From NCBI GenBank assembly GCA_002255575.1, contig NCAT01000004.1:124001-188000 (forward strand): 64,000 nucleotides of DNA, read 5' to 3'. The position numbers and the translations under genes were made by a program. Origin of the DNA: Acidocella sp. 20-57-95. GTDB taxonomy: Bacteria; Pseudomonadota; Alphaproteobacteria; Acetobacterales; Acetobacteraceae. A model generated the notes under the pieces. It was not told the DNA's origin. It searched no databases and saw nothing but the letters and a program-made list of their open reading frames with translations. This document shows positions 18,397 through 60,139 of this stretch, in pieces (the stretch's first letter is position 1; each line of letters starts with the position of its first letter).

Positions 18397-19434
18397 ATGG
18401 ATATTCAGGCAAAACATTCGAATAAGGCCGTGGGGCTTTGGCTGCTGGCCGTGGCATTTATGATCTGGGTGATGGTGGGGATTGGCGGCTACACCCGCGA
18501 TTCCGGCTCTGGTCTGTCGATTATGAACTGGGACCCGGTGATGGGGACGCTGCCCCCCCTTAGTGACGCAGCGTGGAACCAAGTGTTCGCGCTCTATAAA
18601 ACCATCCCGCAAGCGCAAATTCTGCACCCTAATATCGATCTGGCTGGATTTAAAACCTTGTTCTGGCCGGAATATTTTCATCGCTTGTGGGGGCGGTTGA
18701 TCGGGCTGGTGTTCTTTGTGCCGCTGGTGGTGTTCGTTGTGCGCGGCCAAATCGAAAAACGGCTGGTGCCATGGCTAGCACTGCTATTTTTGCTGGGCGG
18801 GCTGCAAGGCGCAATCGGCTGGTTCATGGTGGCCTCGGGGTTTGACCCGAATAGTGTGGCGGTGGAGCCCTGGCGGCTCAGCCTGCATTTCTCATCCGCA
18901 ATGTTCTTGTTTGTGGCGGTGTTATGGACCGGGCTCACGGTGCTGCGGCCCGTAGCGGCCCCGGTGCCGGGCGGCTTGATGCTGCGCAGGGTGGCTTTTG
19001 TGGCCACCGCCTTGCTGGTAATGACCATGTTTGCTGGCACGTTTGTATCCGGCACGCATGCAATTGATGTCTATAACCCTGCAACCGGGGCAGGCATGGG
19101 GGCGCCGCCAGCGGATTATTTGGCTTTGCAGCCATGGTGGTTGAACTTATTTGCCAATAAGGCCGCGATTTTGTTTGACCATCAGACCATCGCGACACTA
19201 ACGGCATTAGCTGTGTTAACCGCAGCGGTGATGGCCCTGCGGAGCAGCTTGAAAGGGCCGGTGCGGGATGCTGCGTTGGCGGTGGGCGCTTTGGTGCTTT
19301 TGCAGTACGCTTTGGGTGTGACGGCGCTGGTCTCCAAAATTATTGACGTGGGCGTAATGCACCAAATGAACGCGGTGCTGCTGTTGGGGGCATTCGTGTA
19401 TATGTTGCATGGGCTACGGGGAGCTGCGCGGTGA
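18397..19434 (+). CDS. ctaA: Heme A synthase (CtaA/COX15)
   Basis: A 345-residue polytopic membrane protein (about eight hydrophobic segments) that oxidises the C8 methyl of heme O to give heme A. The family pattern is complete: GGYTRDSGSGLSIMNWDPV with TLPPL after it, then four predicted heme-ligand His residues in EYFHRLWGRL (His95), SLHFSSAM (His164), LFDHQTIATLTAL and MHQMNAVLLLG. It serves the aa3 oxidase whose genes lie at 54.8-60.1 kb. Its stop overlaps the GTG start of a second CtaA-like gene. Confidence 0.9.
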   Translation: MDIQAKHSNKAVGLWLLAVAFMIWVMVGIGGYTRDSGSGLSIMNWDPVMGTLPPLSDAAWNQVFALYKTIPQAQILHPNIDLAGFKTLFWPEYFHRLWGRLIGLVFFVPLVVFVVRGQIEKRLVPWLALLFLLGGLQGAIGWFMVASGFDPNSVAVEPWRLSLHFSSAMFLFVAVLWTGLTVLRPVAAPVPGGLMLRRVAFVATALLVMTMFAGTFVSGTHAIDVYNPATGAGMGAPPADYLALQPWWLNLFANKAAILFDHQTIATLTALAVLTAAVMALRSSLKGPVRDAALAVGALVLLQYALGVTALVSKIIDVGVMHQMNAVLLLGAFVYMLHGLRGAAR

Positions 19435-20492
19435 GCAAGCCGGACCGGCTGATCGGCAACTGGATATTACTGCTGGCTGCAATGGTATTTGGCATGGTGG
19501 CGGGCGGCGGCCATGCGCGCACCATTGGTGCCGGCTATATCATGCAGGTCTGGCAGCCTTTTACCGGATTCATCCCCCCCCGCACCGATGCCGATTGGAC
19601 CCATCTGTTCCAGCTTTACCAGCAGACCAGCCAGTATAAAGCGATGCATCCGCCAATGCAGATCGCGCAGTTTAAAGCCTTGTTCTGGCCAATGTTTCTA
19701 GACCGTGTCTGGGGGCGGATCATGGCGTTGGTGCTGCTGGTGCCACTGGCGGTGTTTATCGCGAAAGGGCGGATTTCAGCGCGGTTGGCGTGGTGGTTGT
19801 TGGCGCTGTTTGCGTTCGGGGGGCTACAAGCCGCCTATGGGTGGCTGATGGTAACCACGGGTTTACGCCCCGGCGTGCTGAACCCGCCGCCCGAATGGCT
19901 AGCGCCGCATTTTGTCTCTGGCATGGTGATTTTCGGTTTGCTGATCTGGACGGGTTTGAGCGTGAAGCGGCCTGTGCCAGAGCGAATCGAGGGCGGCGGA
20001 TATTTAAAACATTGGCTGAATCTATCGATATTTTTGATTATTTTCACAATGGGTTTGGGGGCGCTGGTGGCAGCGACCGATGCCATCACGGTTTACAATA
20101 GCTTCCCCTTGATGGGGGGGCGCTGGGTACCCGCGGATTATTTTGCGTTGCACCCAGGCTGGTTGAACTTGCTGGAAAATAAAGCGGCAGTGCAGTTTGA
20201 CCATCGGGTCTTTGCAACCATTACCGCCCTGACGGTGCTGATCACCGCAATCCTCGGTTTGCGCGAAACTTTGCCGCCAGGGCCGCGGGATGCGTTTCTG
20301 GTGATGACCGGTTTGGTGAGTTTGCAATATCTGTTGGGGATGGTGACGATCATCTCAGGTTCGGTCGATTTGGGTTATGTGCACGAGCTGAATGCGGTGC
20401 TTCTGCTGGCCGCAGCGATTGTGGCACGGCATGGTTTGCGCGGGGCGGGGCCAAGGCCCATGTTAGACACAGAATTTGCAGCGGCGGAGTGA
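19431..20492 (+). CDS. Divergent CtaA/COX15-like paralogue
   Basis: A 353-residue membrane protein that matches the preceding CtaA along its whole length, including the QxFDHRxFATIxAL segment and YVHELNAVLLLAAA near the end. It differs at key points: the first ligand His is Asp91 (FLDRVWGRI), and the conserved SGLSI loop is replaced by GAGYIMQVWQPFTGFIPP. Three of the four ligand His remain. It starts with GTG inside the previous stop (GTGA). It may have lost heme A synthase activity and could be a partner subunit, a heme-binding helper or a decaying copy. Confidence 0.8.
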   Translation: MSKPDRLIGNWILLLAAMVFGMVAGGGHARTIGAGYIMQVWQPFTGFIPPRTDADWTHLFQLYQQTSQYKAMHPPMQIAQFKALFWPMFLDRVWGRIMALVLLVPLAVFIAKGRISARLAWWLLALFAFGGLQAAYGWLMVTTGLRPGVLNPPPEWLAPHFVSGMVIFGLLIWTGLSVKRPVPERIEGGGYLKHWLNLSIFLIIFTMGLGALVAATDAITVYNSFPLMGGRWVPADYFALHPGWLNLLENKAAVQFDHRVFATITALTVLITAILGLRETLPPGPRDAFLVMTGLVSLQYLLGMVTIISGSVDLGYVHELNAVLLLAAAIVARHGLRGAGPRPMLDTEFAAAE

Positions 20493-20496
20493 ACCA

Positions 20497-21930
20497 ATGA
20501 ACGCGCTTGAGACGGCACACACACTTTTCCACGGTGATGGCGGGTTAGACCCGGTGGTGGCGGCAAGGCATATCGCCGCCGCCCTTGAGGGCACGGATGA
20601 TGGTGAATTATTCCTGGAATATCGGGAATCTGAAGGGATCAGCCTGGAAGACGGGCGGATCCGTTCAGCTAGTTTTGATACGCGGCGCGGCTTTGGCTTA
20701 CGGGCCGTGCTGGGGGATGCCAGCTATTATGCCCATGCCGGAGATTTGAGCGAGGCGGCCTTGGCCCGCGCCGCGCAGACCATTCGGGCGGCGAAGGCTT
20801 CAGAGCAGGCGATGGTGGCGGCCGGCCCGGCGGGGGCAAGTGCGCCACTTTATGCCGGGCTGAACCCGTTGGCTGAGATGCCGTTTGCCACGCGCGCCGC
20901 GTTGCTAAGCGAAATTGATGCCTATGCGCGGGCAGCGGATTCGCGCGTGACACAGGTGATGGCCAGCATCATGGGCGAGTGGCAGGTGGTTGAAATTCTG
21001 CGCGCTGACGGCAGCCGGACGGCGGATTTGCGGCCTTTGGTGCGGCTGAATGTCGCGGTGGTGATGGAAGAAAATGGCCGAAGGGAATCTGGCAGCTATG
21101 GCGCTGGAGGGCGGACATCTTACGCACCCTATATGGCGGCGTCATATTGGCAGGGTGCCGTGCATGAGGCGATCCGCCAGGCTTCGGTGAATTTAACCAG
21201 CATCGCCGCCCCGGCGGGCGAAATGCCGGTGGTGTTAGGCGCCGGCTGGCCGGGGATTTTGTTGCATGAGGCGATCGGGCATGGGCTGGAAGGTGACTTC
21301 AACCGTAAGCAGACTTCGGCGTTTGCAGGGCTGATGGGCAGCCGGATTGCCGCAAAAGGGGTGACGGTGGTGGATGACGGCACATTGCCAGACCGGCGGG
21401 GGTCTCTGACGGTGGATGATGAGGGCACGCCAACATCACGCACCACCTTAATCGAGGATGGTATTCTGGTGGGGTTCATTCAGGACCGGCAGAATGCGCG
21501 GCTGATGAATATGCGCGCGACCGGCAATGGGCGGCGGCAATCCTATGCGCATTCGCCAATGCCACGCATGACCAACACCATTATGCTGAACGGCGAGGCC
21601 ACCACCGAGGACATGATCAAATCGGTGAAACGCGGCCTGTACGCCGTGAATTTTGGCGGCGGGCAGGTCGATATCACCTCCGGCAAGTTCGTGTTCTCAG
21701 CCGCTGAAGCCTACATGATCGAGGATGGTAAAGTGGGCGCACCGGTCAAAGGCGCCACCTTGATTGGCAACGGCCCGGACGCGCTGACCAAAATTGAGAT
21801 GATCGGCAATGATTTTGCACTCGACCCGGGCGTGGGTACCTGCGGCAAGAATGGCCAGGGCGTGCCGGTGGGTGTGGGGCAGCCGACGTTGAAAATGTCT
21901 GGTCTCACGGTCGGCGGGACTGCCGCATAA
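20497..21930 (+). CDS. tldD: Metalloprotease TldD
   Basis: A 477-residue TldD/PmbA-family protein. The zinc motif is HEAIGHGLEGD with a distal ligand Cys in GTCGKNGQG; other conserved stretches are DTRRGFGLRAV, NMRATGNGRRQSYAHSPMPRM and YAVNFGGGQVDITSGKF. TldD pairs with TldE to degrade or mature unstructured peptides in the cytosol. The tldE/pmbA partner is not in the window. The ATG at 20497 follows the CtaA-like stop by four bases. Confidence 0.94.
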   Translation: MNALETAHTLFHGDGGLDPVVAARHIAAALEGTDDGELFLEYRESEGISLEDGRIRSASFDTRRGFGLRAVLGDASYYAHAGDLSEAALARAAQTIRAAKASEQAMVAAGPAGASAPLYAGLNPLAEMPFATRAALLSEIDAYARAADSRVTQVMASIMGEWQVVEILRADGSRTADLRPLVRLNVAVVMEENGRRESGSYGAGGRTSYAPYMAASYWQGAVHEAIRQASVNLTSIAAPAGEMPVVLGAGWPGILLHEAIGHGLEGDFNRKQTSAFAGLMGSRIAAKGVTVVDDGTLPDRRGSLTVDDEGTPTSRTTLIEDGILVGFIQDRQNARLMNMRATGNGRRQSYAHSPMPRMTNTIMLNGEATTEDMIKSVKRGLYAVNFGGGQVDITSGKFVFSAAEAYMIEDGKVGAPVKGATLIGNGPDALTKIEMIGNDFALDPGVGTCGKNGQGVPVGVGQPTLKMSGLTVGGTAA

Positions 21931-53306: not shown

Positions 53307-54772
53307 AGATAGCGGGCGGTTAAATGCGCTTCAAAAGCGGTGGGGTTCAACGCCTCGCCAGTGGCGCGGCGGAGCAGTTCGTTAAAGCCCAAGCTGGCGC
53401 CATGGCTATGAATATTCTGGTTCAGCCACGCCTTTAAGGGCGAGAGATCACCCTGCGCAAAGGACGCATCTAGCGTCGTGATCGCCCGCCGGGCTGCCGC
53501 CATTAATTGCGCAGCACCCATCGCGCCCAAAGTATAGGTCGGGAAATAGCCGATCAGCCCGGCATGCCAGTGAATATCCTGCAAGCAACCGCGCCGGTCA
53601 TCGGGCGGGGTGATACCCAACAGCTTGCTGAAACCTTCATTCCAGGCGCCTGGTAAGTCCGCCACCGCAAGATCGCCTGAAATTAACGCCTGTTCTAGCC
53701 GGAAGCGTAAAATCACGTGCGCCGGGTACGTCATCTCATCGGCTTCCACGCGGATGAAACTGCGCTCCACATGCCGCAGGCGAGATTTCAGCGCCGCTGC
53801 TGTGATGGGTTTATCAAAAGCTGCAGCCAGTAACGGCGCGAGGTAGGTGAGATACGCATCCGAGCGCACGGTCTGCATTTCGATAATCAGTGACTGGCTT
53901 TCATGGGCAGCCATACCGGCGGCTTCGCCCACTGGCTGGCGGCGGAAATTTGGCGGTAGGTTTTGCTCATAAATACCGTGGCCGGTTTCATGCAGAACCC
54001 CCATCAAAGCCGCGCAGAAATCATTCTCGTCATAGCGGTTGGTAATGCGCACATCAGTCGGCGTGCCACCGCAGAACGGGTGGGCGGAGCGGTCCAGCCG
54101 GGCGTGATGATAATCCAGCCCGGCCGCCTCTGAGAGGCGGCGGCAGATTTTCTCTTGAACCTCTTGCGGGTATGGGCCGGGCGGCAAGCGAGGTGCCGGG
54201 TTGGCGCGCTGCTTTGCTTCAGCTTGTGGCAGCGCTGTGGCAAGGAATTTTTCATAATTGGCGAATACCGGCGCCAATTCCGCGGCGGTAATGCCGCGCT
54301 GATAGCCCGAAAGCAACGCATCATAAGGGGAAGTTCCCAGCGCCTCACCCAAAATGACCGCAGATTGGCGCGTCAGGTTTACAACCTCGACCAAAGCCTC
54401 GCGCACCGCAGCAAAATCTGAGGCTGGGCGGGCCGTTCGCCAAATGGTTTCGCATTTGGAATTGGCCCGGCTGCTAGCTTCCACCAGATCCTGCGGTAAG
54501 GAAGTCGCCCGCTTGTGGGCATCGCGCATCAAAGCAAAGTTGGTGGCATGCCACGCATCGTTCGGTGATTCCGCTTGCGCGAAATCCTCGGCCAATTGTG
54601 GGGCTGTTAGAAGTTCGTGGCTCAGGCCAGCCAAAATGGCCATCTGCTCACCCCGGGCATCCGCCCCGCCATCTGGCATCATCGCCGCGGCATCCCAGCT
54701 TAATACTGAGGCAGCCTCATTGAGCGTGGCGATACGGGCGAAGGTAGCGGTTAAACGATTATATGCAGTCAT
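53303..54772 (-). CDS. M32-family metallocarboxypeptidase (Taq type)
   Basis: A 489-residue thermostable-carboxypeptidase-1-like enzyme. The zinc motif is HETGHGIYEQ, with HESQSLIIEMQ (third ligand region), HPFCGGTPTDVRITNRY and GYFPTYTLGAMGAAQ conserved in the family. It trims C-terminal residues from peptides in the cytosol. Its start overlaps the SURF1 stop by four bases (ATGA), so it is the last gene of the cytochrome oxidase operon. Confidence 0.94.
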   Translation of the reverse strand: MTAYNRLTATFARIATLNEAASVLSWDAAAMMPDGGADARGEQMAILAGLSHELLTAPQLAEDFAQAESPNDAWHATNFALMRDAHKRATSLPQDLVEASSRANSKCETIWRTARPASDFAAVREALVEVVNLTRQSAVILGEALGTSPYDALLSGYQRGITAAELAPVFANYEKFLATALPQAEAKQRANPAPRLPPGPYPQEVQEKICRRLSEAAGLDYHHARLDRSAHPFCGGTPTDVRITNRYDENDFCAALMGVLHETGHGIYEQNLPPNFRRQPVGEAAGMAAHESQSLIIEMQTVRSDAYLTYLAPLLAAAFDKPITAAALKSRLRHVERSFIRVEADEMTYPAHVILRFRLEQALISGDLAVADLPGAWNEGFSKLLGITPPDDRRGCLQDIHWHAGLIGYFPTYTLGAMGAAQLMAAARRAITTLDASFAQGDLSPLKAWLNQNIHSHGASLGFNELLRRATGEALNPTAFEAHLTARYL

Positions 54773-55467
54773 GGTTCGCGCAGCCTTTTGCGGGCAAAAA
54801 AGAAAAACTCCACCACCAGCACCATGGCAAAACCAAACCAGGTTAGCTCGTACTGGTAATGATTATTGGGCGGGCGCGGCAATGTTTGCGCCGGCTGTGG
54901 CAATGCTGAGCCGGGGGGCGGTAATGGCCCCATGGCGATGAGCGCAAAGGGGGCGACCTGATGAAAACCCAGTGCCGCGCCGAGCGTGGTAGTATTCAGC
55001 GTATAAAATAATCCGCGCTTAGGATCATCCGTACCGGCGAACCAACCGGCTTGGTCCGATTGGTGAATATACCCGACAGCCTCAGTTTCACCGGCCGGCA
55101 GTATCGCCGGTTGCGGTTTTTTTTGCGGCACCCAGCCGAGATCGACCAGCACAACTGGGCCGTTATCCTGTTGGAAGGGCATCACCAGCTCGCCACCCTC
55201 AATCGGACCGTTCGGGCTGTCATGCACTTCATCACTATACAAAACCGCCTTACCCATAACCCAGTGGCCAGCAATGCTCACTTTCTCAAACGGTGTGGGA
55301 TCCGCGGGCAGCGGGATTGGCGGGCTAATTTCCGCCGCGTGAATTTGCGCAAGAATACCCTCTTTCCAAACCCGCCGATGCGCCTGCCACACGCCAAGCG
55401 AGATCAGCACCCAAAACAGAATGAAGGCCGCAATGCCGGGTTTAATAAGACGACGGTACTTGGTCAT
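54769..55467 (-). CDS. SURF1-family cytochrome oxidase assembly protein
   Basis: A 232-residue protein with membrane helices at both ends (AAFILFWVLISLGVWQAHRR and YQYELTWFGFAMVLVVEFFFF) and the SURF1 periplasmic domain between, with VSIAGHWV and VLVDLGWVPQ. It helps insert heme a into subunit I. The ATG at 55467 follows the family pattern; the reading upstream crosses a terminator hairpin. It belongs to the cta operon. Confidence 0.93.
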   Translation of the reverse strand: MTKYRRLIKPGIAAFILFWVLISLGVWQAHRRVWKEGILAQIHAAEISPPIPLPADPTPFEKVSIAGHWVMGKAVLYSDEVHDSPNGPIEGGELVMPFQQDNGPVVLVDLGWVPQKKPQPAILPAGETEAVGYIHQSDQAGWFAGTDDPKRGLFYTLNTTTLGAALGFHQVAPFALIAMGPLPPPGSALPQPAQTLPRPPNNHYQYELTWFGFAMVLVVEFFFFARKRLREP

Positions 55468-55474
55468 GGTGTGT

Positions 55475-55500
55475 AAAAAAGGCCGCTCGCGCGGCCTTTT
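55475..55500 (-). terminator. Hairpin terminator between ctaE and the SURF1 gene
   Basis: GGCCGC/GCGGCC with a four-base loop and U tracts on both strands. It would reduce expression of the SURF1 and peptidase genes relative to the oxidase subunits. Confidence 0.65.
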
Positions 55501-55505
55501 GTTGG

Positions 55506-56396
55506 TTAGCCCGCCACAATCGCGCTGCGGCCCAGATAATAAATGCACACAAACAGAAACAGCCACACCACGTCCACGAAGTGCCAGTACCAGGCAGCCG
55601 CTTCAAAGCCGAAATGGCGTTGCGGGGTGAATTGGTGGCGCATCGCGCGCAGTAAGCAAACAATCAGGAAACCGGTCCCCACAATCACATGAAAGCCGTG
55701 GAACCCTGTGGCAATAAAGAAGGCCGAGGCAAACACACCGCCATGGTAAAAATTGAACGGCGAATGGGTATATTCCCAAGCCTGACCGCATAAGAAGGCG
55801 AGGCCAAGCAGAACCGTCACGGCCAAACCTTGCACGGTGCCCTTATTGTCACCTTCCAGCAGGCAATGATGCGCCCAGGTGATGGTGGTGCCAGAGAGCA
55901 ACAAAACCATTGTATTAAACAACGGGATTGCAAACGGGTCGATGGTGGTGATGCCCATTGGCGGCCAGACCGGCGCCATCGCCACGCCCATTTTGTCTGG
56001 ATAGAAGAAATAATTGAAATAGTTCCAGAAGAAAGAGACAAAGAACATCACTTCTGAGGTGATGAACAAAGTCATGCCATAGCGCAGTCCGATTTGGGTG
56101 ATCAGCTTATGCAGGCCAGGCGTAGCAGATTCCCTGACCACATCCCGCCACCAAACATACATGGTCGCCGCCGTCATCGCCAAACCAAGCGCGATGAGGA
56201 TGAAATTATGGAAATGCGCCGCGAATATAATACCGCCAGCAACGCACATCGCAGAGAACGCGCCACAGACTGGCCAGATGCTGGGGTCAACCAAATGATA
56301 CGGGTGCGGCACAGTCCCTTTTATTTGGCCGGTGGCCGTGTGGATCTGGTTATGCGTATCATGCTGGTCTTGGGCCGGGTGAACTGCAGCGCTCAT
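55506..56396 (-). CDS. ctaE: Cytochrome c oxidase subunit III
   Basis: A 296-residue membrane protein of the aa3 oxidase with seven helices. Characteristic stretches are HPYHLVDPSIWPV near the start, LRYGMTLFITSEVMFFVSFFWNYF, NTMVLLLSGTTITWAHHCLLEGD and FATGFHGFHVIVGTGFL-type sequence (ATGFHGFHVIVGTGF). It keeps subunit I stable during proton pumping. It starts 34 bases after the small 51-residue gene; no ctaG lies between. Confidence 0.95.
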   Translation of the reverse strand: MSAAVHPAQDQHDTHNQIHTATGQIKGTVPHPYHLVDPSIWPVCGAFSAMCVAGGIIFAAHFHNFILIALGLAMTAATMYVWWRDVVRESATPGLHKLITQIGLRYGMTLFITSEVMFFVSFFWNYFNYFFYPDKMGVAMAPVWPPMGITTIDPFAIPLFNTMVLLLSGTTITWAHHCLLEGDNKGTVQGLAVTVLLGLAFLCGQAWEYTHSPFNFYHGGVFASAFFIATGFHGFHVIVGTGFLIVCLLRAMRHQFTPQRHFGFEAAAWYWHFVDVVWLFLFVCIYYLGRSAIVAG

Positions 56397-56429
56397 CGTG
56401 TCTCTCTCATATCTCGACTTTAATTCTGT

Positions 56430-56585
56430 TTACCACATCTGCCCGTATTCGTGTAGCTTCACCAGGGCAATCGCGTAAATGAGCAGGCAGAACCCACCCA
56501 ATGCTGCCAGCAGCAAATAATTGCGGCCACGGCGGCGGCGCTTGAACTCCGCTACCATTTCCGGGGTCCAGTCTTCGGTTTTCAT
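56430..56585 (-). CDS. Small oxidase-operon protein (51 aa, CoxF-like)
   Basis: A short gene whose ATG shares a base with the ctaB stop (TGATG). The product starts MKTEDWTPEMVAEFKRRRRG, then RNYLLLAALGGFCLLIYAIA, one membrane helix, and ends EYGQMW. In alphaproteobacteria a small protein of this build (Arg-rich helix plus one TM segment) is often found between ctaB and ctaG. It likely helps assembly; no function is proved. Confidence 0.75.
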   Translation of the reverse strand: MKTEDWTPEMVAEFKRRRRGRNYLLLAALGGFCLLIYAIALVKLHEYGQMW

Positions 56586-57502
56586 CATATCAGCCGGTCC
56601 AGGGCACAGGCACCGAACAATAAAAATAGGTACAGGATAGAGTAGCGGAACGCCAATTTGGCTGGTGCGTCTTTGGTCAGGCTGACCCCTCTGGCATCCT
56701 GCGAATCTGAGAGGACGCGCCAGGCGTAATAGATGAAACCAAGCCCGAGTGCGGTAGCGGCAACGCCATAAACCCAGCCGGCCAAGCCAAAAAACACCGG
56801 CGAAAGGGTAAGCGGCACCAACGCCAACGTGTAGATAAACACGTTCCAGCGCGTATGACGGGCCCCCTTCACCACCGGCAGCATCGGTACGCCAGCGCGC
56901 TCATAATCACCCGAGGCATAAAGTGAGAGTGACCAGAAATGCGGCGGGGTCCAGACGAGCACGATCAGGAACAGCAAAATCGGCAGCAAACTAATCGAAC
57001 CTGTCGCAGCAGCCCAGCCGATCACCGGCGGGAACGCACCGGCGGCACCACCGATCACGATATTCTGCGGGGTGCGGCGCTTCAACCAGATGGTATAAAC
57101 GAAAACATAAAACGCAATCGAAATGGCGAGCACTGTTGCGGCCACAAAATTCGCCGCCAGCCACATCACCAGCACCGAGAATACCGAAAGTACAATACCA
57201 TAAGCCAGCGCGGCGTTCGGCTGAATCCGGCCGGCCGGGATCGGCCTGGTGGCGGTGCGCTTCATGATCGCATCAATATCGCGGTCATACCACATATTAA
57301 TGGCACCAGCGGCGCCAGCAGCGACCGTGATGCAAAGGATCGCAGTGATCGCCAAAATCGGGTTCATATGAACGGGCGCAATTACCAGCCCGATGGCCCC
57401 CGTGAACACCACCAAAGTCAGCACGCGTGGTTTCAGCAGCGCAATCCAGTCGCTGGCTTCGGCCCCGAGTTCGGTTGAATTGGCGAAAACCGTGTCACTC
57501 AT
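56585..57502 (-). CDS. ctaB: Protoheme IX farnesyltransferase (heme O synthase)
   Basis: A 305-residue UbiA-family prenyltransferase with about nine membrane segments. The Asp-rich sites are NMWYDRDIDAIMKRT and DYERAGVPMLPVVKG; LLKPRVLTLVVFTG opens the domain. It adds farnesyl to protoheme to make heme O, the substrate of the CtaA at 18.4 kb. It lies 84 bases after ctaD with a hairpin in the gap. Confidence 0.95.
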   Translation of the reverse strand: MSDTVFANSTELGAEASDWIALLKPRVLTLVVFTGAIGLVIAPVHMNPILAITAILCITVAAGAAGAINMWYDRDIDAIMKRTATRPIPAGRIQPNAALAYGIVLSVFSVLVMWLAANFVAATVLAISIAFYVFVYTIWLKRRTPQNIVIGGAAGAFPPVIGWAAATGSISLLPILLFLIVLVWTPPHFWSLSLYASGDYERAGVPMLPVVKGARHTRWNVFIYTLALVPLTLSPVFFGLAGWVYGVAATALGLGFIYYAWRVLSDSQDARGVSLTKDAPAKLAFRYSILYLFLLFGACALDRLI

Positions 57503-57532
57503 ATCGAAACTATATCCTACTGCATAAACGAG

Positions 57533-57552
57533 ATGCCCGCTTGCGCGGGCAT
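57533..57552 (-). other. Stem-loop between ctaD and ctaB
   Basis: ATGCCCGC/GCGGGCAT with a TTGC loop and no U tract. It may be an RNA-stability or attenuation structure that sets high ctaCD against low ctaB expression. Confidence 0.5.
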
Positions 57553-57586
57553 ACCGTGTTACTAGCGTCAGTAACTCAGGAAATTC

Positions 57587-59209
57587 TTACTGAATAACAG
57601 GCACATCTTCGAACGTGTGGTGCGGTGCCGGGGATGGCACAGCCCATTCCAGCGTGGTGGCACCTTCACCCCAGTAATTATCCGCCAGCTTCTCCTTGGA
57701 GGTGAAAATCCGATAGAGAATATAGAAGAACACCGCGGTGGAGGCACCCGATATCATCGCGCCCACTGAGGACACAAAGTTCCAGCCGGCAAACGCATCA
57801 GGATAATCCGGGTAACGACGCGGCATACCCGCGAGGCCGAGGAAATGCTGCGGGAAGAAGGTCAGGTTCACGCCGACGAAGGTGGTCCAGAAATGCACCT
57901 TGCCCCAGAACTCCGGGTACGGATGGCCCGACATCTTGCCGATCCAGTAATAGAAACCAGCAAAGATCGCGAACACCGCACCAAGTGAGAGCACATAGTG
58001 GAAATGGGCAATCAGGAAGTAGTCGTTGTGCAGTTCCTGGTCCAAGCCCGCATTGGCCAACACCACGCCGGTAGCACCACCGATGACGAACAGGAAGATG
58101 AAGCCGATTGCCCACAACATTGGCGTTTTGAACTCGATCGACCCACCCCACATGGTGGCAATCCAGGAGAAAATTTTGATGCCAGTCGGCACCGCGATCA
58201 CCAGGGTCGCCACTTCAAAATAGATCCGGCTATCGGTTGAAATGCCCGAGATGAACATGTGGTGGGCCCACACCACGAAGCCGACAAACCCGATGATCAC
58301 CATGGCGTAGGCCATGCCGAGATAACCGAACACCGGTTTCTTGGAGAAGGTGGAGACGACATGGCTGATAATTCCGAAGGCCGGCAAGATCATGATGTAC
58401 ACTTCAGGGTGCCCGAAGAACCAGAACAGATGCTGGAACAACACCGGGTCACCACCACCAGACGGCTCGAAGAACGAAGTCCCGAAATTACGGTCCATAA
58501 TCAACATGGTCACCGCACCGGCCAGAACTGGAATTGCCAGCAGCAGCAAGAACGCGGTCACCAAAATCGCCCAGCAGAACAGCGGCATTTTGTGCATGGT
58601 CATGCCAGGGGCGCGCATGTTCAAAATGGTGGCAATGAAGTTGATGGCACCCAGCAGCGAGGAAATGCCCGCCAAATGCAGCGAGAATAGCGAAAAGTCG
58701 GTCGCGATACCCGGCGAGAATTTGGCGTTATCAAGCGGTGGGTAGATGGTCCAACCAGCGCCAGTACCATCGCCAATCAGAAGGCCCAACATCACAAAGA
58801 TGAAGCCCATCACCAGGAACCAGAAGCTCATATTATTCAGGCGCGGGAAGGCCATGTCGGGTGCGCCGATCATCATCGGTACAAACCAGTTGCCAAAGCC
58901 CCCGATCAACGCCGGCATCACCATCCAGAAGATCATGATTAGACCGTGCGCGGTGATGATCGCGTTCCATTCGGTACCGCTGCTGACGATGTGGTTATGC
59001 GGATACATCAACTGTGCACGCATAATCATGGAGAGTATGCCGCCGACGCAACCACCGATAACCGCCGAAGTGATATACAGCGTGCCAATGTCTTTATGGT
59101 TGGTGCTCATCAGCCAACGGCGGACAAAACTCGGTTTCGCGTGGCCATGCTCGCCATGAGCGTCATGGGCCGCGTGAGTGTTGTGGTCGTCATGGGTCGT
59201 GGAGGACAT
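57587..59209 (-). CDS. ctaD: Cytochrome c oxidase subunit I
   Basis: The 540-residue catalytic subunit of the aa3 oxidase. Visible are [11 protein letters not shown], the D-channel segment [21 protein letters not shown], the [19 protein letters not shown] block with the conserved Glu, [13 protein letters not shown], and the heme-ligand region [11 protein letters not shown]. The N-terminus has a His-rich stretch (residues 5-24) that could bind metal. A second heme-copper motif set is complete, so a working enzyme is expected. Confidence 0.96.
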
Positions 59210-59239
59210 GTCTTAGCGCTCCTTAAATAAACTGGCTGG

Positions 59240-60139
59240 TCATTTTACGACCGCCAAATCAGCAAACTGGTTAACCGGCATTGGCGACGATAGCAGGTTC
59301 GGCGCAAATGAGTTCATCACATAATTGGCCTGCGCCACTTTAACCCAAGCCAGATAATCATCCATTGAGACCGCCTTAATCTCAATTGGCATAGCATCAT
59401 GGTTGACACCACAAATCTGGTTACATTCGCCATAATAGGTGCCAACTTTTGGAATAATGGTCCAGCTGGTCACCACGGTGCCGGGGATAGCGTAACGCTG
59501 TACGCCGAGCGACGGCAGGTAGAAACCATGTAGCACATCAGTGCTGGAGATATTAAACTTAATTTTCTTGCCAACCGGCACCACAATCGGGTGGTCGACG
59601 GTTAGGCGGCGAATATCGCCCGGCTGCAACTTATCATCCGGGATCATATAGCTGGTGTAATCCAAACCCGGTGTGGATTCATATTTATATTCCCAATACC
59701 ATTGGTGACCAACGGCATCGATGGTCATGTATGGGTTGCTGTCATCAGCCTCGTAATAAATCAGGCTGATCGAGGGCACGATGATCACGGCCAGCAATAA
59801 AGTAGGTATGACGATCCAGATCACCTCAACCAGTGTATTATGGGTAAATAATGCCGGGGTTTTGTTGGCGCGCGCATTAAAGCGCAGCATCACATAGACC
59901 ATCAGACCACCGACAAACGCCACGATGCCTGCCATGATCCACAGCACATATTTCATCAGCCAGTCGATCTTTTCCTGCATCGGGCTGCCAGCTTCGGGGA
60001 ACCACATCTGCCAGTTATGCGGCGCGTTCACATAAGCGTTGGCCGCCGCGGTTGGGTCGGCTGTCTGTGCCAACGCGGCATGGCTAAACAGCCCCGCCAG
60101 CAACACAACGCCAAAAATCTGTCCAAACACCCGCTTCAT
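59240..60139 (-). CDS. ctaC: Cytochrome c oxidase subunit II
   Basis: A 299-residue protein with a signal sequence ending AALAQTAD, two membrane helices and a periplasmic cupredoxin domain. The aromatic loop is GHQWYWEYKYE, and the copper A site is complete: His in DVLHGFYLPSLGV plus C-NQI-C-GVN-H-DA-M. It accepts electrons from cytochrome c. It is first in the operon; the 300 bases before it hold the promoter and a nested palindrome. Confidence 0.95.
   Translation of the reverse strand: MKRVFGQIFGVVLLAGLFSHAALAQTADPTAAANAYVNAPHNWQMWFPEAGSPMQEKIDWLMKYVLWIMAGIVAFVGGLMVYVMLRFNARANKTPALFTHNTLVEVIWIVIPTLLLAVIIVPSISLIYYEADDSNPYMTIDAVGHQWYWEYKYESTPGLDYTSYMIPDDKLQPGDIRRLTVDHPIVVPVGKKIKFNISSTDVLHGFYLPSLGVQRYAIPGTVVTSWTIIPKVGTYYGECNQICGVNHDAMPIEIKAVSMDDYLAWVKVAQANYVMNSFAPNLLSSPMPVNQFADLAVVK

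Follow-up and report, generated by a model that had tools for sequence, protein, structure and literature searches.

Two genes of the COX15/CtaA family lie in tandem in Acidocella sp. 20-57-95 and raise the question of why a bacterium keeps a second copy of a heme A synthase gene whose product has an aspartate in place of the first ligand histidine of its heme pocket. A sequence-only reading of the 64,000-nucleotide stretch of DNA analysed here (the window) had proposed that this second copy was not simply decaying, and that it could form a mixed dimer or bind heme without catalysis. What the heme b bundle contributes to heme A synthesis is described as unsettled (PMC12808453) and CtaA is reported to form oligomers (PMC7327177); a natural pair with the substrate pocket in one protein and mainly the cofactor pocket in the other would allow each to be tested separately.

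The tandem ctaA genes and the fold of their products

The features of the locus are the following:

18397–19434, forward strand: ctaA1, encoding a COX15/CtaA protein of 345 amino acids with an ATG start (PF02628 match, model and alignment)
19431–20492, forward strand: ctaA2, encoding a COX15/CtaA paralogue of 353 amino acids with a GTG start (PF02628 match, model and alignment)
19420–19434, forward strand: GGAG ribosome-binding-like sequence in the end of ctaA1 and GTGA stop/start overlap (read from the sequence)
20497–21930, forward strand: tldD, after a gap of 4 bases 3' of ctaA2

Both genes are full-length and overlap, as first described for positions 18397 to 20492. The stop of ctaA1 and the GTG start of ctaA2 share the bases GTGA, and the two genes are likely translationally coupled. 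Among 51 distinct pairs, the distance from the end of ctaA1 to the start of ctaA2, the latter estimated from the alignment, ranges from -4 to 112 bases, with -4 as the commonest value (12 pairs). The two proteins share 44% identity over 339 amino acids without gaps, and a search of the source genome with PF02628 returned these two genes and no third.

The PF02628 matches are full-length for CtaA1 (290.1 bits) and CtaA2 (286.6 bits), far above the cut-off of 29.9. The proteins were modelled with AlphaFold2 with mean pLDDT values of 91.7 and 93.7, respectively, and both models display the two four-helix bundles of the CtaA fold. Foldseek gave the heme A synthase of B. subtilis (6a2j) as the best match of both models. 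The best structural matches of the CtaA2 model were 6a2j (VIA-align, Z 21.8, rmsd 3.9 over 279 residues) and A. aeolicus CtaA (8aw5, Z 17.6). Neither translation contains a cysteine, as expected for a type 2 CtaA, which has no periplasmic cysteine pairs. At the sequence level, a phmmer search of CtaA2 against the PDB found no CtaA, a profile search with CtaA1 gave no match, and the CtaA2 profile matched 8aw5 only by half. The scores against the NCBIfam equivalog of alphaproteobacterial heme A synthase (NF045570), 201.5 and 196 bits, are below the curated value of 550, which may say little about function. Since both genes match PF02628 well, such a match does not in itself prove a copy active.

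The likely user of heme A is encoded elsewhere in the window:

54769–60139, reverse strand: aa3-type cytochrome c oxidase operon coxB-coxA-ctaB-coxC-surf1 (gene names assigned by reading the translated sequences, with a family test for coxA only)

A genome-wide search with PF00115 recovered coxA alone, the sole heme-copper oxidase subunit I detected.

Distribution, origin and selection

We looked for close relatives in which the second copy is missing or broken, and found the tandem pair intact in all 38 Acidocella genomes searched, where no match contains an internal stop; in this set some pieces of G204 and G229 are cut by contig ends, and G225 carries two pairs. In the latter, a MAG, the pairs L099 (G225:C34) and L042 (G225:C35) have their partners swapped between two species groups, due either to a mixed assembly or to true recombination. 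The pair also occurs in seven genomes of the Acidiphilium group (g96) and in one of group g24, counts that cover the genomes listed with matches, the listings of matchless genomes being short by 19 and 42, so that the pair may be missing from some members of either group. Named carriers include Acidocella facilis, A. aromatica, A. aquatica and A. aminolytica, and Acidiphilium rubrum and A. iwatense; we take the former to represent the genus group of the window (g1) and the latter group g96. A contig binned as Nitrospirae (L226) contains, at bases 825–935, a stretch of 37 residues that is 68% identical to CtaA2 and is perhaps a misbinned or broken piece.

In a sample of the family, 161 of 200 genomes have a PF02628 match, and among those with two matches the tandem pair is confined to these three groups. 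The other double matches in the family and order samples have different origins: one canonical gene in overlapping assembly pieces, 98.8% identical (G041, G188); a second match below the cut-off (G091, G121, G122, G162, G173, G291, G304); two partial pieces (G330); a partial, canonical second copy (G109); and a canonical C-half fragment on the opposite strand (G193). A genome of another genus (G144) has two canonical CtaA genes on separate contigs (L067, L077) that are sisters in the tree, reflecting either an independent duplication in which the ligands were kept or a mixed bin. Across the class, 111 of 142 genomes have a match, and two matches were found only in the source genome, in G502 (a complete gene plus, on a different contig, an N-half piece) and in G532 (two complementary pieces). 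In the phylum sample, two matches, either second genes or split matches, were recorded for the source genome and for G813, G814, G849, G853, G890, G951, G962, G965 and G977. Last, the aspartate variant was searched for in DNA with the pattern F-x-D-R-x-W-G-R, which fixes neighbouring residues and can miss variants: it has 26 matches, spread over 24 of the 385 class genomes including the source genome, and of the 20 places checked only that of the window falls within a CtaA gene. Most of these matches are due to chance, because a control with the pattern reversed also matches many genomes.

The order ctaA1-ctaA2-tldD is common to all of the 27 distinct pair loci that were selected (29 when two repeats are counted). 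Among 11 genomes with a single ctaA, tldD lies directly 3' of it in three and about 3.5 kb away in one, and was not seen in the remaining seven, mostly within flanks of 1.5 kb. Because tldD follows every selected pair locus and also three of the single genes, ctaA was most likely duplicated in place. The phylogeny of the two copies agrees with this origin. Maximum-likelihood analysis of 77 rows, with 10 class sequences as the root, places CtaA1 and CtaA2 in one clade (100/100) nested among the CtaA of the family, so that an origin of CtaA2 from a distant, transferred CtaA type is not supported; quick trees of 137 and 144 rows are compatible with this. CtaA2 is itself a clade (100/100) with a long stem branch of 0.79 changes per column. 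The CtaA1 of Acidocella groups with CtaA2 (94/73) rather than with the other CtaA1, possibly as a result of long-branch attraction.

Purifying selection appears to act on both copies, with dN/dS values of 0.08–0.38 for CtaA2 (19 genome pairs) and 0.04–0.24 for CtaA1 (18 pairs); these are rough values, as the pairs were chosen by hand, some genomes were used twice and some dS are near or above 1. In CtaA2 the N half has a dN no higher than that of the C half, which argues against the N half being a mere relic, as a relic would not need such constraint. The pairwise distances of CtaA1 and CtaA2 correlate weakly beyond those of tldD, with a partial r of 0.32 over 43 of 47 loci, a value reached in 15 of 2000 permutations. 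That CtaA2 is a functionless, decaying duplicate, as its long stem branch and the loss of two active-site residues (see below) might suggest, is hardly credible given the 38 Acidocella genomes in which no match has an internal stop, the retention of the gene in the Acidiphilium group, the low dN/dS, the constant gene order and an aspartate found in 51 of 51 CtaA2. We therefore reject decay, in agreement with the sequence-only reading.

Residues of the two heme pockets

The N bundle of CtaA is thought to bind heme O and to oxidise it by means of a glutamate, and the C bundle holds heme b (PMC12808453). As summarised in the same source, mutants of the first and second ligand histidines (H1, H2) are inactive with hemes still bound, mutation of H3 abolishes activity as well as heme binding, and H4 mutants are active with weaker heme ligation; H60 (H1) and E57 are active-site residues of B. 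subtilis CtaA. The corresponding motifs of the pair are located as follows:

18670–18684, forward strand: intact catalytic motif of CtaA1, E92-Y-F-H95-R96 (E, H and R in 50/50 CtaA1)
19072–19110, forward strand: altered C-half periplasmic loop of CtaA1, YNPATGAGMGAPP for YNTFPLMDGxxxP (from the sequence)
19692–19703, forward strand: degenerate ExxH motif of CtaA2, codons M88 to D91, Met-Phe-Leu-Asp (D in 51/51 and M in 46/51 CtaA2)
20094–20132, forward strand: C-half loop kept by CtaA2, YNSFPLMGGRWVP (its P, M and last P in 51/51 CtaA2)

Residues were counted over distinct sequences of at least 300 amino acids, comprising 51 CtaA2, 50 CtaA1, 56 CtaA without a tandem partner and an outgroup of 30 from other families of the class. 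The N-pocket signature of CtaA1 is intact (GSGLSIMNW, E92YFH95R, H164) and H262 and H322 are also present; E92 and the four histidines H95, H164, H262 and H322 are each found in 50 of 50 CtaA1. Because all four histidines and the glutamate are kept, CtaA1 may be a complete enzyme by itself.

In CtaA2, the H1 position is occupied by D91 and the other three ligands are kept (H160, H258 and H318), as the sequence-only reading had it. The position holds Asp in 51 of 51 CtaA2 versus His in all 136 other rows (50 CtaA1, 56 without a tandem partner and 30 outgroup), so that Asp91 is not a matter of chance. The list of altered residues first drawn up was right on this point and incomplete on two others, the Met88 that replaces the catalytic glutamate of the ExxHR motif (E57 of B. 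subtilis) and the glutamate that follows H4. At the E57 position CtaA2 has Met in 46 rows, Asn in 4, Asp in 1 and Glu in none (0/51), versus Glu in 136/136 of the others. The supposed loss of the SGLSI loop did not hold: the loop has the same length and is substituted rather than deleted, reading GAGYIM here and GAGFxI in most relatives. H2 and H3 are histidines in 187 of 187 rows and H4 in 186, the exception being one row that ends short; the heme b ligands of CtaA2, H258 (H3) and H318 (H4), are thus present in 51/51. The protein also retains QFDHR and the YNSFPLMGG loop. Its C-half columns are partly altered too, at G219 and after H4, where E319 (codon 20385–20387) is a CtaA2-specific Gln to Glu change beside a heme b ligand: Glu is found in 51/51 CtaA2, and Gln in 50/50 CtaA1, 30/30 outgroup rows and 55/56 rows without a tandem partner, the remaining one ending short.

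Taken with an Arg92 and a His160 that are likewise present in 51/51 CtaA2, and with the low dN/dS, the invariant Asp91 could indicate an enzyme of changed chemistry, in which the aspartate acts as heme ligand or as acid/base and the heme side chain is oxidised differently or only in part. We consider this unlikely: the proposed catalytic glutamate is lost as well, the survey in PMC12808453, in the portion available, has only His or Asn at H1, and we know of neither a second product nor anything here that would use an unusual heme.

The CtaA1 of this genus is unusual as well, as both its C-half loop and its QFDHR motif are altered. The P and M of the loop are missing in 38/38 Acidocella CtaA1 rows and present in 12/12 early-branching ones; the Gln of QFDHR is absent from the same 38 and kept by the 12. 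The residue after H3 is Gln in the 38 rows, hence the FDHQ in the window where FDHR is expected, and Arg in the 12. Both sets are also clades, the former corresponding to Acidocella and the latter to the Acidiphilium group, g24 and a few named MAGs.

To compare the two halves we used signature columns (34 N-half and 17 C-half), defined by conservation in at least 98% of the rows that lack the pair. In Acidocella, 91% of the N and 57% of the C columns are preserved in CtaA1, versus 66% and 82% in the matching CtaA2; for the early-branching CtaA1 (12 rows, Acidiphilium group and g24) the values are 88% and 83%, and for the matching CtaA2 64% and 81%. The losses thus appear to be partly mirror-image, affecting the putative heme O pocket of the N half in CtaA2 and the putative heme b pocket of the C half in Acidocella CtaA1. 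From the groups that show each change, it seems that the N half of CtaA2 was altered first and the C half of CtaA1 later, in the Acidocella line only. Complementation would therefore not be universal, because the early-branching CtaA1 keeps 83% of its C columns although its CtaA2 is already altered.

Possible roles of the pair and comparison with known heme A synthases

The absence of catalytic residues from a CtaA2 that is nevertheless intact in the relatives checked suggests that CtaA1 and CtaA2 work as a pair. We propose, giving it an even chance, that they form an obligate hetero-oligomeric heme A synthase in which CtaA2 is an old pseudo-enzyme paralogue. The common ancestor of Acidocella and Acidiphilium would have doubled ctaA in place; CtaA2 would then have shed both groups that heme O oxidation is held to require (H1, now Asp, and E57, now Met) and kept the fold and most of the heme b signature of the C bundle, and in the Acidocella line CtaA1 would have lost the C-bundle loop and the Gln and Arg of its motif with the catalytic motif of the N bundle left intact. 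CtaA1 would oxidise heme O, and CtaA2 would provide an intact heme b bundle and/or an oligomer scaffold with a surface for hand-over toward CtaB and the aa3 oxidase. The published work on H1 and Glu and a trimer core built of C bundles lead us to regard CtaA2 as probably catalytically dead with its C bundle probably filled, and CtaA1 as the catalytic subunit. Binding of heme without catalysis, as first suggested for the second copy, fits the H1 mutants described above by analogy. The mixed dimer suggested at the same time is a hypothesis that the partly mirror-image losses in Acidocella favour. A stricter form of the proposal, that in Acidocella CtaA1 alone has a working heme O oxidation site and CtaA2 alone a fully competent heme b electron site, is put forward tentatively, as possible rather than probable. 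If so, electrons or heme would have to pass between subunits, in trans, and a single-chain enzyme would have been naturally split into an obligate heteromer by mirror-image decay of two ancestral halves.

We prefer the hetero-oligomer to a lone enzyme with a bystander mainly because Acidocella CtaA1 is worn where CtaA2 mostly is not. This same wear, odd for a stand-alone enzyme, weighs against a CtaA1 complete on its own and accompanied by a CtaA2 that serves as a separate heme-handling or oxidase-assembly factor, binding heme O or heme A in its C bundle or in its changed N pocket and passing it on to CtaA1 or apo-CoxA. Such a factor would agree with the E92 and four histidines retained by CtaA1, with residues invariant in CtaA2 alone (H28 in 43/43, D91 and E319 in 51/51) and with the low dN of the CtaA2 N half, as expected for a new function; we find it doubtful, if less so than an enzyme of changed chemistry. 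The copper-insertion protein Cox11 might seem to strengthen the case for an assembly factor: none was seen in the aa3 operon, and a PF04442 search of the source genome found none. This absence does not track the pair, as Cox11 was not found in 45/45 pair-bearing genomes and also not in 16/35 relatives without the pair, so that we rejected a link between the pair and the loss of Cox11. The same pattern is a hint that CuB insertion may differ in the wider group.

A purely structural role, arising by constructive neutral evolution, would have CtaA2 stabilise a CtaA oligomer or a CtaA-CtaB complex, with heme bound to no purpose. There are precedents, in that deranged respiratory proteins are retained in the same order, with structural roles suggested for them (PMC10715153), and one known CtaA trimerises through its C bundles (PMC7327177). 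The histidines H3 and H4 are found in 51/51 CtaA2, which a heme-free scaffold need not keep, and we regard this role as very unlikely.

Compared with the canonical type 2 CtaA/Cox15 of Alphaproteobacteria and mitochondria, both proteins of the hetero-oligomer proposed here are alike in their full-length PF02628 match, their H2 to H4, the lack of cysteines and eight predicted transmembrane helices in two bundles. They differ in being two tandem paralogues where most relatives have one protein, in the absence of H1 and E57 from CtaA2, and in the absence of the C-half loop motif and of the Arg after H3 from Acidocella CtaA1. The CtaA of B. subtilis and A. aeolicus, unlike the pair, are single proteins with H1 and Glu present in the active site, and the A. 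aeolicus trimer, whose core is built of C bundles, is a homo-oligomer (PMC7327177), unlike the CtaA1-CtaA2 assembly proposed here. The deranged proteins of Acetobacteraceae (bc1 complex, COX1-like; PMC10715153) belong to the same order and are likewise retained despite lost metal ligands. In that study Cox15 of these taxa is used in a phylogenetic comparison, and the available part of its text mentions no tandem or degenerate copy. Literature searches for a second, paralogous or tandem CtaA, and for the genera concerned, returned no title or abstract opening pointing to the pair, which may possibly have been noticed earlier, for instance in the supplement of PMC10715153. The pair illustrates how a duplicated enzyme could turn into an obligate pair. 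That the two heme bundles can occupy separate polypeptides is known from the type 1A CtaA of archaea, in which four-helix half-proteins work as a dimer (PMC12808453, PMC9145763). The subunits of that enzyme are identical single bundles, whereas CtaA1 and CtaA2 each have both bundles, with different signatures worn.
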